From Atopobium fossor DSM 15642 (GTDB lineage Bacteria > Actinomycetota > Coriobacteriia > Coriobacteriales > Atopobiaceae), in NCBI RefSeq assembly GCF_000483125.1, contig NZ_KI519553.1, positions 469,124 to 533,123 of the forward strand: a stretch of 64,000 nt of DNA, given 5' to 3'. Below, in pieces: positions 18,542 through 24,255 of the stretch; positions within the stretch are counted from its first letter, which is position 1; each line of letters starts with the position of its first letter. The position numbers were made by a program, and so were the translations under genes. The notes under the pieces were generated by a model. The model saw only the letters and a list, made by a program, of their open reading frames with translations, searched no databases and had not been told where the DNA came from.

Positions 18542-21500
18542 ATGAACAACAAACTGAAGAAAACTATTGGTATCACTACGTCAGCAATGATGATAGCGGG
18601 CATGAGTGTGCCAACTACCACATATGCTGATGTTACTGCTTTGCCCGATACCACTACAGCTCCCAAAAAGACAACCACAGCTACTCATTGGAGGTCTGCG
18701 CCCACCACACAAACGGAGGCTCAGCAAAACGTTGATGCAGCCAAGGCGGATGTAGATGCCGCTAAGCAAGAGGTGGACAAGAAGAAGGCAGCAAACGATG
18801 CCGCTGCTGCAGAGGTTGATGCTGCCAAGGCAGATGTTGACAAAGCAAGTTCAGACATCAGTACTGCAGACGAAGGTATGAGCAAGGCTGTCTTAGACGC
18901 TCAGGATGTTGCAAAGAAGCAAGCAGATGCAGATGCTCAGGCTGCCACTAAAGCACAGCAGGAGTCCGAGGCTGCTCAGCAGGCGGTAGACGAGGCCCAA
19001 TCCAATGTTGATGCTGCAAACAATGAGCTCACGCAGGCACAATGCGATGTCAAAAATGCAAAGGCTGCAGTTGATGCTCTTGACGCCAACAAGGAGCAGA
19101 TTGCAAAAAAGGCCTATGACGATGCTGTTGCCAAAAGTGATGAGGCTGCTCGCAAGGTAACCGAAGCTGCAAAGGATGTTGAGTCAGCAAAGCATGATGT
19201 AGAGGTTGCAGCCGAGCGTAAGACTAACGCTGAATCTGAGGTCCAGAAGGCCAAGCAGTATAAACAAGATGCTGATGCTAACGTAACTACAGCACAGCAG
19301 GAGCTTGATAAGGCCAACGCTGCTCTGGAGAAGGCAAAGCAGGATGCAAAGGACAATGAGCGGGCCATCGCTCATGTTCAGTCTGCGATCCAGGACGCAA
19401 AACGTGCACTTGAAACTGCAAAGCAAGAGCAGGCTGATGCTGAGTCTACCTATAAGGCAGCGAGTGAGTCTGTAAAGAGTGCAAACAATGCTGTTGACGA
19501 GGCAAACAAAGTTCTTACAGAGGCAAGCAAACATAAGACTAAAGCCGAAGAAGCTGCTCAGAAGGCCCAAGAGGCTCTTGCTGCTGCGCAGGTTGATGCA
19601 AACAAAGATTTTGATCAGACCAAAGTTGGTAAAAATGTACTTAAGGCCTTGAATGATGCTAAGAATGAACTTCGTGATGCCGAGAATTCATTTACCAAGG
19701 CAGAAGAGAAGCTCACAAAGGCTGAGGAGACACTTAATAAGGCTAAGGAAAACTTACAGAAGGTTAAGGAAGCTGCTGGTCAAACTATCAATGCAGACGC
19801 TTCTAAGGGTTCTCTTGGTTTTTATGAATGGTTATTATCTAAGGATCCATCTGCTCAGAAGGCTATTGACTTGTTAACTGATTCTAGCAAGACTGGCGTT
19901 GATAAGAATAGCGGCAAGACATTCCTGTCTTTTACCAAGATGGGTGTTGATGGTGACGCGACTTCGCTTGAGAACATGAAGAAGGCGCTTGATTTTATTA
20001 AGCAGGGGAATAAGATTCGTACAACCTCTCCTGATAAGCCTGGTCTGGCTGATTGGAAGGTTAGTGCTTTTGCTATGGCTTTAGCCCAAATTAATGCTAA
20101 CTGGAGCTATCGTACTGTTCCAGATAGTAAGAATCCACATGCAGCTCACAATGGTGAAGCTGTTTATGCTGGCGAAAACATTGCTGCATCTTATGGAGAG
20201 AATAATGATTGGAATCCATATGATGGTTGGTATACTGAGGAGCGCAAGCTATGGCTCGCCGATCATAACACGAATAAGGCGGGTCATTATCACAATATCC
20301 TTGAATCTAGGAACAACCTTAATGCAGTAACTGGATTTGGGTATCATCAAAGTGCTGGAACGGAAGACGATTATAGAAATATTTTTGCCCAAGAGTTTTT
20401 CTATTATGGAAAAAATGGCGAAAGTATCAATGGCAAAGCTTATACCATTGACGAGTTTGTTGCTCTCTTTGAACAATATTACAACGCCGCAATGAACAAT
20501 TCTGGCAGTTCTAATGCTATTAAGGAAGCAGAGAAGCAGGTAGAAGTTGCTCAAAAGAATTATGAGCTGGCACAACAAGATCTTAAGAAGGTAATTGATC
20601 ATCTTAAGGATAGCCAGAATGTATTCAATAATGCCCAACGTTCTTACGATGACCAAAAGGCTGATTACGAGAGCAAGGCACAAGAGAATATTCTTACTGC
20701 TCAGAATAATTTGCAGGATGCTAATAATAAGGTAGCTGACGCTCAATCCAAGGTAGACGATGCCAAGTCTGAGCTTGATAAGGCAAATGACCTCCTCAAG
20801 AACGCTAATGAGCATCTTGCTACTGCAAAGAATGAGAAGAAAGCAGCTGACGCAAAAGTAACAGAGAAGCAAACTGTCCTTAAGGAAGCCGAGCAAAAGC
20901 TTGCTGATATTGAAGGCGGCGTTGATCTTGCTAAGGCTCAGGAGCGCGCAGCTTCCGCTCAGAAGGACTTTAACGTTGCCAAAGGTGCTGCTGTAACTGC
21001 AAGTACTGCATACAACAATGCATTAAATGAGGTACAGGATGCTGCTCAGGCACTTGGGCAAGCAAACAAGAAGTTTGCCGATGCAACCGTCGCACACGAA
21101 CAGGCAAAAACCAATGCCGAGACTGCAAAAACTGAACTTGCTACTGCTTTGAGTGAGTACAACGGTTACAAGTCTATCCATGATGCCTATAACAAGGCCC
21201 TAAAGACGCTTGACGAGAAAAATCACCTTCTTGCTGAGGTCAGGGGTAAATATGATGTAGCCATCAAGATGGGTAAAGAAAAAGAAGCTGCAGCTCTGGA
21301 CGCTACCAAGAAGGCACGTGAGTCTGCTGCCAAGCAACAGGTGCTCGCAAACGTTACTGTCGAAGGTATTCTTGATGGTACATACACCACGCCAGCAGCA
21401 CTTGTTGATGCAGTTAAGGCACTTGCTCAGAAGAAAGCCAATGCAACAATCCGTCTTGATGCTGCTAGGAAACGTCATGCGTTGGCTCAGGCGCGTTATG

Positions 21501-21745
21501 GTATTACTGCACAGGAATACTCAGATGCAAAGAATGCTTATTTGCAGGCGCTTGTTGTGGCATTTGAGGCCAACGAGACGTATGATAAATTCCGTGCTCA
21601 GCATCCACACGCCAAGACGGTCAAGCCACAAGAACTTCCTCAGACAGGTGAAGCATCCTTGCCTATAGCGGCTTATGCAGCTCTTGGTCTAGCTAGTCTT
21701 GGCACAGGTGTTGCAGCCGCTCATATGAGGCGCAAGTCGCAATAG
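18542..21745 (+). CDS. LPXTG-anchored coiled-coil surface protein with CAP-like domain
   Basis: A 1067-residue cell wall protein. Visible parts: a signal peptide (1-29, ending TTYA); a long Ala/Lys/Glu/Asp-rich coiled coil (about 55-420) with repeated DAAKADVDxA-like heptads; a globular domain (about 424-649) resembling CAP/SCP domains, with GENIAAS and HYHNIL-like blocks; a second coiled coil (about 650-950); and a sorting signal with LPQTG (1032-1036), a hydrophobic stretch and a basic tail, the substrate of sortase. Architecture resembles SEC10/PgrA-type surface exclusion and adhesin proteins. Target and function are unknown. It is a single-gene unit between two terminators. Confidence 0.85.
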   Translation: MNNKLKKTIGITTSAMMIAGMSVPTTTYADVTALPDTTTAPKKTTTATHWRSAPTTQTEAQQNVDAAKADVDAAKQEVDKKKAANDAAAAEVDAAKADVDKASSDISTADEGMSKAVLDAQDVAKKQADADAQAATKAQQESEAAQQAVDEAQSNVDAANNELTQAQCDVKNAKAAVDALDANKEQIAKKAYDDAVAKSDEAARKVTEAAKDVESAKHDVEVAAERKTNAESEVQKAKQYKQDADANVTTAQQELDKANAALEKAKQDAKDNERAIAHVQSAIQDAKRALETAKQEQADAESTYKAASESVKSANNAVDEANKVLTEASKHKTKAEEAAQKAQEALAAAQVDANKDFDQTKVGKNVLKALNDAKNELRDAENSFTKAEEKLTKAEETLNKAKENLQKVKEAAGQTINADASKGSLGFYEWLLSKDPSAQKAIDLLTDSSKTGVDKNSGKTFLSFTKMGVDGDATSLENMKKALDFIKQGNKIRTTSPDKPGLADWKVSAFAMALAQINANWSYRTVPDSKNPHAAHNGEAVYAGENIAASYGENNDWNPYDGWYTEERKLWLADHNTNKAGHYHNILESRNNLNAVTGFGYHQSAGTEDDYRNIFAQEFFYYGKNGESINGKAYTIDEFVALFEQYYNAAMNNSGSSNAIKEAEKQVEVAQKNYELAQQDLKKVIDHLKDSQNVFNNAQRSYDDQKADYESKAQENILTAQNNLQDANNKVADAQSKVDDAKSELDKANDLLKNANEHLATAKNEKKAADAKVTEKQTVLKEAEQKLADIEGGVDLAKAQERAASAQKDFNVAKGAAVTASTAYNNALNEVQDAAQALGQANKKFADATVAHEQAKTNAETAKTELATALSEYNGYKSIHDAYNKALKTLDEKNHLLAEVRGKYDVAIKMGKEKEAAALDATKKARESAAKQQVLANVTVEGILDGTYTTPAALVDAVKALAQKKANATIRLDAARKRHALAQARYGITAQEYSDAKNAYLQALVVAFEANETYDKFRAQHPHAKTVKPQELPQTGEASLPIAAYAALGLASLGTGVAAAHMRRKSQ

Positions 21746-21838: not shown

Positions 21839-22780
21839 TTATGGTTCTAGCTCGTGTAAGTTACTCCAAAAGCGCTTGGGCACCCAGCTTGTACGTAGGT
21901 CATAACCACGTTCCAATTGATTGCGTCCACTAAAACCAATCTTTTTATAAAACATCTTCCACATATCGCGAATATAGCGCTCTTCATCAGAGAGATGTTT
22001 TGCTTGTAAGAGTTCTTGTAACAATGCTTTGTCAAGTAGCGTTATGCTACAGCGTGTATCTCCAGCTATATGGCTTATAACTACGCTATGCTTTGGGTCT
22101 ACAATGGCAAAATTTTCCGTACGCAGTCTACCTGCAAAGTATGATGCTACTAGAGGAAGAACATTTGCCTTGCAACTAAAACGAGCAAAATATGATCCAT
22201 CTTCCATTTTGCTCATACGAATGAATTGACGAGCATGCTCACATTCATTGCGCCCCTTACGTACAAAGTTCAAAAATGCTTCCGACTGCGGTGCTGCTAG
22301 CATAGATCGCGATTGCTTTTTGCACTGTAGCACCATGCGTATCCATTCATATACTGCTTGCGGCATAGAAGGGTCATCATAGCTGCAGGCGTAGGCAACA
22401 AAATATCTTGCTGGTTTATCGTAGTTGCGCTGTAATTGCACAAGCAAACGTTGTACTAAACCTAAATCTTGTAGTCCATCAAGAGGGCCAAGCAAAACCT
22501 CATCCAGCTGTGGTTGACAGCGGTCTTCTAGGCATAGCCGTAGGCAGTTGCTTTTTACGTTGGCATAGTACGTAAGTGCCGTGGTAACAAGAATGGATTC
22601 GATTGAAGGTTTGCATAGTAATACAACCTGTTGGCCATAATCTACAGCCATCCTAATCTTTGTAACAAGCTCTTGTGCTTCTGTTGATAATTCACAGATG
22701 TGTACATCGTTAGAATAATCTAAGCTGCTGTTCTTCAAGTTCTTTTCTTCTTTGGTTGTATGTACTGGCTTTGGCATCAT
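21839..22780 (-). CDS. DUF4130 family protein, probable DNA metabolism/repair partner of the radical SAM protein
   Basis: A 313-residue protein of the family found encoded beside the putative DNA repair radical SAM enzyme (TIGR03915/DUF4130). Blocks such as EAFLNFVRKGRNECEHARQF and the C-terminal MWKMFYKKIGFSGRNQLER are in keeping with the family; the biochemical role is not established. The first ATG, after a GGTGG-type site, lies inside the upstream gene, giving a 71-nt overlap; a shorter form is possible. Both genes share the promoter at about 24130-24160 that carries LexA-like boxes. Confidence 0.78.
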   Translation of the reverse strand: MMPKPVHTTKEEKNLKNSSLDYSNDVHICELSTEAQELVTKIRMAVDYGQQVVLLCKPSIESILVTTALTYYANVKSNCLRLCLEDRCQPQLDEVLLGPLDGLQDLGLVQRLLVQLQRNYDKPARYFVAYACSYDDPSMPQAVYEWIRMVLQCKKQSRSMLAAPQSEAFLNFVRKGRNECEHARQFIRMSKMEDGSYFARFSCKANVLPLVASYFAGRLRTENFAIVDPKHSVVISHIAGDTRCSITLLDKALLQELLQAKHLSDEERYIRDMWKMFYKKIGFSGRNQLERGYDLRTSWVPKRFWSNLHELEP

Positions 22781-24098
22781 TCACCACCCGATGCCTAATG
22801 AGCTGTGGATCAAGTGGACTGTGAGGGTCGCGTTTACCACAGCAAGTCAAAAAATGCCGAGCCCTTTTAAGGGTAACATGCATGCGTTTTAAATCATCAA
22901 AGGTCAAGAGGGTAGTGTGCCGCGACTGTATAATACGCCTTGCACCAACAGGTCCTACTCCTGGAACGCGCAATAACAGCTCCAATGAAGCATCCATTAC
23001 CTCAATGGGAAAACAATCCAAATGTTTAAGTGCCCATGCAAGCTTGGGATCTACTTCCAAATCAAGCCACGGAGCATCGGGATTTACTAATTCATCAGCA
23101 TCAAAATTGTAATACCGCATAAGCCAGTCTGCTTGATAGAGCCTGTGCTCTCTGCGTAGAGGGACGGGTGTACCAAGTTCTGGTAAGCGTGCATCTTCGA
23201 GCATGGGCATATAGGCAGAGAAGAATACACGTTTAAGATCAAACTTTCTATACAGTGAACTCGAAAGTTTGAGAATATGATTATCATCTTCGGGACTGGC
23301 ACCCACGATAATCTGTGTAGATTGTCCTGCCGCAGCAAAGCTCCTAAGAGAGCTTCCTACACCTGAAGTTTTTCTCATGGTGCAGGAAGTCCCACGAGAG
23401 ATAAGTGCCTGCCCAGAGCATTTAGAGTAGCCGAGGTTTCCAAAGGATTGAGATTGTCTAGCAAAAGATCTTTGAGTACTTCCTAGCAAGTGAGTTTCTT
23501 CTTCAAGTCGCTTGCTGTGGATAAGCGCCATAGGCTCCAAGAGAGAAGCAGCAGTTTTATCTGGACACAGTATGTCTAAAGAGCTGGCACTTGGTAGTTC
23601 TAAGTTAATGGATAAACGGTCCGAGAGTTTGCCAACAATGTCTATCAATTCTGGACTGGTGCCAGGAATTATTTTGGTATGAATATAGCCATTAAACTGG
23701 AGTTCTTCTCGTAAGATATGCAAGCATGCAATCATGCGTTCTACGGTAGCATCTGCTGTTCCAAGAACGCCAGAAGACAAAAATAGACCTTCAATATAAT
23801 TGTGTTTGTAAAACTCAATTGTAAGTTCTGCGAGCTCACGCGGAGTAAAAGTAGCACGAGCACAGCTTGCACTCTTACGATTAACACAGTAGGCACAATC
23901 AAAGCTACAAGCGTTTGACATAAGGACTTTGAGCAGAGTAATGCAACGCCCATCTTCTGTAAAACTATGACAGCAGCCAGCAGCGTGAGTGGTACCAAGT
24001 TTGCCAGCCTTAGTGTTTTTATTGGAACCGGAAGACGTGCAGGCTACATCAAAGCGTGCAGCTTCTGCAAGAATCTCTAGCTTTGACATAGTATCCAC
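22710..24098 (-). CDS. Putative DNA modification/repair radical SAM protein
   Basis: A 462-residue radical SAM enzyme of the TIGR03916 type. The [4Fe-4S] cluster motif CX3CX2C is at Cys64, Cys68 and Cys71 (CSFDCAYC), and a helix-hairpin-helix segment (LLRVPGVGPVGARRII) near residue 375 suggests DNA binding. The family's reaction is unknown; its name rests on domain content and pairing with the DUF4130 gene, which follows with overlap. The GTG at 24098 is favoured by AAGGAG 7 nt upstream. Two GAAC-N4-GTTC-like boxes in the promoter suggest SOS control, in keeping with a role in DNA damage. Confidence 0.85.
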   Translation of the reverse strand: MDTMSKLEILAEAARFDVACTSSGSNKNTKAGKLGTTHAAGCCHSFTEDGRCITLLKVLMSNACSFDCAYCVNRKSASCARATFTPRELAELTIEFYKHNYIEGLFLSSGVLGTADATVERMIACLHILREELQFNGYIHTKIIPGTSPELIDIVGKLSDRLSINLELPSASSLDILCPDKTAASLLEPMALIHSKRLEEETHLLGSTQRSFARQSQSFGNLGYSKCSGQALISRGTSCTMRKTSGVGSSLRSFAAAGQSTQIIVGASPEDDNHILKLSSSLYRKFDLKRVFFSAYMPMLEDARLPELGTPVPLRREHRLYQADWLMRYYNFDADELVNPDAPWLDLEVDPKLAWALKHLDCFPIEVMDASLELLLRVPGVGPVGARRIIQSRHTTLLTFDDLKRMHVTLKRARHFLTCCGKRDPHSPLDPQLIRHRVVNDAKASTYNQRRKELEEQQLRLF

Positions 24099-24110
24099 GA
24101 TATACTCCTT

Positions 24111-24166
24111 ACTAGAACAAATGTTCTAGTAAGGATAACATGTAGATACATACAGTACAAGTGTTC
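24111..24166 (-). promoter_or_regulatory. Promoter with two LexA-like (SOS) boxes
   Basis: On the minus strand TTGTAC (24160-24155), a 17-bp spacer and TATCCT (24137-24132) form a promoter. A 20-bp perfect palindrome at 24111-24130 contains GAAC-N4-GTTC (24115-24126) just downstream of the -10. A second imperfect copy (24155-24166) covers the -35. GAAC-N4-GTTC is the core of Gram-positive LexA boxes, though the usual flanking C/G is replaced by A/T here. Confidence 0.65.
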
Positions 24167-24214: not shown

Positions 24215-24255
24215 TAACAAAAAGCGGCGACCCCCAAAGGAGCCGCCGTTACTCA
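24215..24255 (-). terminator. Terminator of the NADH oxidase gene
   Basis: Read on the minus strand, a GCGGC...GCCGC stem extended by TCC/GGG pairs is followed by TTTTTGTT. It lies about 45 nt after the stop codon of the NADH oxidase gene. Confidence 0.6.

Follow-up and report, generated by a model that had tools for sequence, protein, structure and literature searches.

The window analysed here is a 64-kb stretch of the Atopobium fossor DSM 15642 genome. Its minus strand carries a gene for a radical SAM protein of family TIGR03916 (rSAM_link_UDG), followed by a partner gene for a DUF4130 protein of family TIGR03915. The partner gene overlaps the radical SAM gene by 71 bp, and the two are therefore probably carried on one transcript. 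Both families are widespread and annotated as "putative DNA repair"; to our knowledge, no reaction has been described for either of them. The next gene upstream on the same strand encodes an NADH oxidase, as judged by a family profile match. A terminator-like hairpin ends that gene, which leaves room for the operon to have a promoter of its own.

The promoter region of the radical SAM operon

Read along the minus strand, the region upstream of the radical SAM gene contains, in order, TTGTAC, a 17-bp spacer, TATCCT, a first box (box 1, GAACAAATGTTC), AAGGAG and the GTG start codon at 24098, which lies 16 bp from box 1. A second box (box 2, GTACAAGTGTTC) lies further up, and the centres of the two boxes are 40 bp apart, or about four helical turns. 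A preliminary description of this DNA had placed a GAAC-N4-GTTC site just after the -10 element and an imperfect second copy over the -35 element of a promoter with 17-bp spacing. Both boxes are confirmed, the first as an exact match and the second with one mismatch. Box 1 also forms the core of a longer perfect palindrome, which reads CCTTACTAGAACA-AA-TGTTCTAGTAAGG. Coordinates are collected in Table 1.

The -35 hexamer is poor, agreeing with consensus at 3 of 6 positions; the hexamers are weak, and a consensus promoter scan called no promoter at the operon. The promoter call is based on conservation. The same geometry recurs as TTGTAC-N17-TATTCT in Atopobium minutum and as TTGTAC-N17-TATACT in another orthologous locus (L021), and TATTCT, TATACT or TATAAT is found immediately 5′ of box 1 in many orthologues.

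Table 1. Features of the radical SAM operon and its promoter region (window coordinates), and lexA upstream regions carrying a shifted motif (locus numbers)
Feature	Position	Strand	Remarks
Radical SAM protein gene, TIGR03916 (rSAM_link_UDG)	22710-24098	minus	462 aa; 566 bits, cut-off 343.5
Partner protein gene, TIGR03915/DUF4130	21839-22780	minus	313 aa; 116 bits, cut-off 112.25; DUF4130 E 4.5e-29
Predicted LexA box 1	24115-24126	.	exact GAAC-N4-GTTC; adjoins -10, spans inferred transcription start
Predicted LexA box 2	24155-24166	.	one mismatch; overlaps inferred -35
Perfect 28-bp palindrome	24107-24134	.	13-bp arms, AA centre; overlaps Shine-Dalgarno and -10
Inferred -35, TTGTAC	24155-24160	minus (24160-24155)	hexamer and 17-bp spacing recur at L018 and L021
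Inferred -10, TATCCT	24132-24137	minus (24137-24132)	17 bp from -35
Shine-Dalgarno, AAGGAG	24105-24110	minus (24110-24105)	6 nt 5′ of GTG start; read directly
Intrinsic terminator-like hairpin	24225-24248	minus	10 pairs, 8 of them G-C, T tail; 3′ of NADH oxidase gene
Coiled-coil surface protein gene	18542-21745		1067 aa; convergent with operon
lexA upstream regions with TAAAC-N4-GTTTA	L185-L195		G015, G043, G065, G076, G118, G167, G177, G187, G203, G211, G227

The palindrome reaches into the ribosome binding site and could work at the RNA level, as a hairpin masking the Shine-Dalgarno sequence and start codon for translational control, rather than as a binding site for a protein on DNA. The minus-strand RNA of 24060-24150 does have a stable predicted fold (-36 kcal/mol, z -6.1), with AAGGAG in the stem, and transcripts that read through from upstream would form a strong hairpin over the Shine-Dalgarno sequence and start codon. 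Against this, the inferred transcription start falls inside the palindrome, so that the promoter's own transcript would lack the 5′ arm. Moreover, Atopobium minutum and other orthologues keep the core of the box but not the long arms, and the same core is present at recA, lexA and ruvC. We consider it improbable that RNA folding accounts for the palindrome, although a hairpin might act on read-through transcripts alone.

Box scores and related sites in the genome

Considered as a bare 8-base core, the box is not enriched. One exact match is found in the window, where 0.69 are expected, and with up to one mismatch there are 16 matches, against 18.8 in shuffled sequences. These figures would be compatible with chance matches to a short palindrome, and we therefore judged the boxes by a longer matrix, by where they lie and by comparison with orthologues. 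We derived an 18-bp matrix from 125 lexA and radical SAM promoter sites, none of them from this genome but all from Coriobacteriia. With it, box 1 reaches 18.0 bits, the highest value in the window, and only 0.02 such scores are expected per 64 kb; the site moreover lies next to a start codon. Box 2 scores 12.3 bits, for which 1.15 occurrences are expected per 64 kb. By score alone this is chance level, so box 2 gains credibility only through its position and the conservation of double boxes. Elsewhere in the genome, exact AGAAC-N4-GTTCT sites occur within coding sequence twice (L003, L005) and once between convergent genes, as part of a long palindrome that resembles a terminator (L007), and an exact match is thus no proof of an operator.

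Absence of the box from the lexA and recA promoters was one of the things that, in the preliminary description, would have spoken against its reading; boxes are found at both. The lexA gene (TIGR00498, 223.8 bits) encodes an intact LexA, with the LexA DNA-binding domain and, in alignment with solved LexA structures, the VAAG (Ala-Gly) cleavage site and the GDSM and TVK motifs that supply the Ser and Lys residues. Its promoter region contains boxes of 19.4, 18.4 and 17.3 bits, including AGAACAAATGTTCG and AGAACAAATGTTCT; two of the lexA boxes have a core identical to that of box 1. This region is shared with a divergent gene for a LysM protein whose score falls slightly short of the YneA cut-off. 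At recA, CGAACAGATGTTCG (20.3 bits) sits between the -35 and -10 elements, the promoter reading TTGACA-TCGAACAGATGTTCGTA-TATTCT. Further boxes are present at ruvC (16.2 bits) and at a gene for a Y-family polymerase (15.1 bits). Neither uvrA nor L154, the second gene for a Y-family polymerase, showed a box in a search of this genome with the 18-bp matrix.

The Gram-positive SOS box, as known from Bacillus and actinobacteria, is CGAAC-N4-GTTCG. Box 1 is flanked by A/T, and the preliminary description, which had correctly remarked on the missing C/G flanks, suggested a lineage-specific LexA motif. This second part did not hold up. The recA promoter of the same genome has the classic CGAAC-N4-GTTCG in its spacer, and of the 125 sites from Coriobacteriia, 61% have C and 28% have A as the flanking base. 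C/G flanks are typical of the box but are no requirement in Coriobacteriia, in which lexA sites themselves vary. We therefore regard the motif as the SOS box common in Gram-positive bacteria, with some freedom in its flanks. It resembles that system in its GAAC-N4-GTTC core, in its presence at the promoters of lexA, recA, ruvC and a Y-family polymerase, and in a LexA with DNA-binding domain and self-cleavage residues; it differs in the tolerance of the flanks.

The boxes might instead be used by another S24/HTH repressor, for example one of prophage type. The genome does encode a second S24 protein, and at another locus (L001) a box lies in the neighbourhood of a gene for an S24/HTH protein. 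But matching boxes stand at the promoters of lexA and recA, the genes that LexA usually controls, and boxes at the radical SAM gene follow boxes at lexA across 39 genomes. A repressor other than LexA is, in our estimation, very improbable, even more so than control by an RNA hairpin, and we retain LexA as the predicted regulator.

Two other loci deserve mention. On contig C3 of this genome (about 87.1 kb), a 104-aa ORF (L008:1562-1876) with no Pfam or NCBIfam match is preceded by an 18.5-bit box, CTAGAACATATGTTCTGT. Its homologue in Atopobium minutum (L201, 66% identity) has an identical box upstream. Judged by these sequences, the ORF is probably an undescribed small SOS gene. At L001:1499-1516, a 17.1-bit box lies between two genes for HTH regulators, one of which has a weak S24 peptidase domain. 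This suggests a mobile or regulatory locus under predicted LexA control.

Conservation in Coriobacteriia and other bacteria

Orthologues of the radical SAM gene allow the boxes to be judged across a whole class. Allowing up to one mismatch and searching the 130 bp upstream of the gene, we find a box at all 27 Coriobacteriia orthologues on GenBank contigs (58 sites in all) and at 24 of 26 Coriobacteriia loci from GTDB. Eleven controls with permuted half-sites match 0–5 of the GenBank loci and 0–8 of the GTDB loci, and the highest count belongs to ACGA-N4-TCGT, which overlaps the true motif with a one-base offset. With this comparison, the possibility that the boxes are chance matches is refuted, and we give it practically no weight. 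Many orthologues have two boxes, one just 3′ of the -10 element and the other roughly 28–58 bp further up, and in most Coriobacteriia orthologues the second box is at a place similar to that of box 2. A spacing of 40–42 bp is common to Atopobium minutum and most Olsenella/Tractidigestivibacter loci.

One caveat to these counts is that related sequences are not independent of one another. We therefore made two more tests, one pairing lexA with the radical SAM gene within each genome, the other examining promoters from Bacillota. In Coriobacteriia, boxes are present at both lexA and the radical SAM gene in 25 of 25 genomes. Among 14 other Actinomycetota, genome G229 stands alone, both in having a box at the radical SAM gene and in having an exact one at lexA; two further genomes in this group have a single one-mismatch site at lexA, which is background level. 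In Bacillota, which lie outside the training set, 11 of 31 radical SAM promoters score at least 15 bits, against 3 of 558 control 200-mers, and the promoter scores split into one high and one low group. None of 20 radical SAM promoters from other phyla reaches 15 bits.

One other actinomycete lineage has boxes of a different form at lexA. In 11 of its 11 genomes, which are among the 14 Actinomycetota just described, these read TAAAC-N4-GTTTA (Table 1), a shifted LexA motif. No such box is found at the radical SAM promoters of this lineage, even when two mismatches are allowed. The idea that lexA and the radical SAM gene share a motif there as well, in place of the GAAC box, was accordingly rejected. 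All sampled Bacteroidota and Spirochaetota loci, and many of those from Bacillota, are without the box, and published Bacteroidetes motifs matched 1 of 6 loci when sought at the radical SAM genes of Bacteroidota. Since the box is missing from many Bacillota, from other phyla and from the TAAAC lineage, SOS control is not a requirement for the enzyme in every lineage.

Predicted LexA control and the encoded proteins

We conclude that LexA very probably uses the two palindromes as operators to control the promoter of this two-gene repair operon, which LexA would block and damage would release. Since the same sites stand at lexA and recA, and at the same operon throughout Coriobacteriia, the operon is very probably induced by damage. 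The tie between the radical SAM cassette and DNA damage that the preliminary description had drawn from the boxes is thereby strengthened. As long as the cell is free of damage, RNA polymerase would be blocked by LexA dimers bound to box 1, across the transcription start, and to box 2, across the -35 element. Upon DNA damage, RecA filaments would form and promote self-cleavage of LexA, and the radical SAM/DUF4130 operon would be transcribed. Beyond the existence of the sites and their conservation with lexA, the steps of repression and induction are taken from the established SOS circuit; it is by analogy with that circuit that we infer LexA binding, repression, induction and action of the products on damaged DNA.

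Operators that keep step with lexA across a whole class constitute homology-independent evidence that the TIGR03916/TIGR03915 pair serves DNA damage. The absence side of this pattern comes from the lineage in which the LexA box has changed and the operon has no such box. The boxes also indicate when the enzyme should be sought, namely after damage, and Atopobium minutum is a cultivable relative in which the prediction can be tested.

Several related systems bear on this proposal. In Clostridium acetobutylicum, the CAC3343-CAC3344 operon was predicted in 2013 to be under LexA, based on footprinting and stress arrays (PMC3828012). That organism belongs to another phylum, and its operon is equated with that of Atopobium by annotation. 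Given this earlier prediction, the Atopobium operon adds a further, well-supported example to a known type of control. The support differs in kind, consisting here of a whole class of genomes, co-variation with lexA, double operators and similar promoter geometry, and what is added is the class-wide conservation test. LexA boxes of Coriobacteriia were not the subject of any paper in a literature search of limited coverage. A second parallel involves COG4277, which we take to be the helix-hairpin-helix radical SAM family of TIGR03916. The COG1573-COG4277 operon, which pairs this family with a uracil-DNA glycosylase, is SOS-controlled in Bacteroidetes, with earlier reports from Verrucomicrobia and Alphaproteobacteria (PMC8565304). 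It, too, is a two-gene repair operon with control of LexA type, but its LexA motifs are CTAA-N5-TTAG and GGA-N5-TCC and its partner is the glycosylase. DUF4130 itself has been linked through gene neighbourhood to SplB-like enzymes and glycosylases (PMC3765255). SplB, the spore photoproduct lyase, is likewise a radical SAM enzyme (an SOS-linked photolyase) tied to DNA damage. The window protein, by contrast, matches TIGR03916 only; no spore photoproduct lyase family of NCBIfam or Pfam matches it at E 0.001. None appears among the structure matches listed for its model, which excludes nothing.

The radical SAM protein has the invariant CX3CX2C motif (C64, C68 and C71; alignment A1) and a C-terminal helix-hairpin-helix of the DNA-binding type, seen as a weak Pfam HHH match below its cut-off. 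Its structural model (pLDDT 83.7) contains a partial barrel; its nearest structural matches are lipoyl synthase (VIA Z 18.1, rmsd 3.3, 227 residues) and HydE (Z 17.5), which are tied. Three further invariant cysteines, C20, C43 and C52, precede the radical SAM motif, C20 within a low-confidence stretch of the model. In lipoyl synthase, N-terminal cysteines hold an auxiliary cluster, and by analogy C20, C43 and C52 could hold an auxiliary iron-sulphur cluster.

Of 79 loci, 61 encode a DUF4130 relative beside the radical SAM gene, and a contig edge cuts off some of the remainder. The model of the window's own DUF4130 protein (pLDDT 85.5) shows a weak likeness to DHH phosphoesterases, RecJ and Cdc45. 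The leading Foldseek matches are mostly DHH proteins, with a weak best E of 6.8e-4, and the best VIA match is also weak (Z 8.1, rmsd 5.6 over 202 residues). The alignment of DUF4130 proteins contains no invariant DHH motif. Consistent as the modelled resemblance is, it may be taken as a lead, not a result. We may speculate, with considerable doubt, that the two products are induced in the SOS response and together process lesions by a new chemistry, in which a lipoyl synthase/HydE-like barrel, possibly with a second cluster at C20/C43/C52, would work with a RecJ/Cdc45-like partner that has no invariant DHH metal motif and perhaps holds DNA ends uncut.

Finally, the gene convergent with the operon encodes a coiled-coil surface protein that matches no Pfam family and bears an LPQTG sorting motif at its C terminus.
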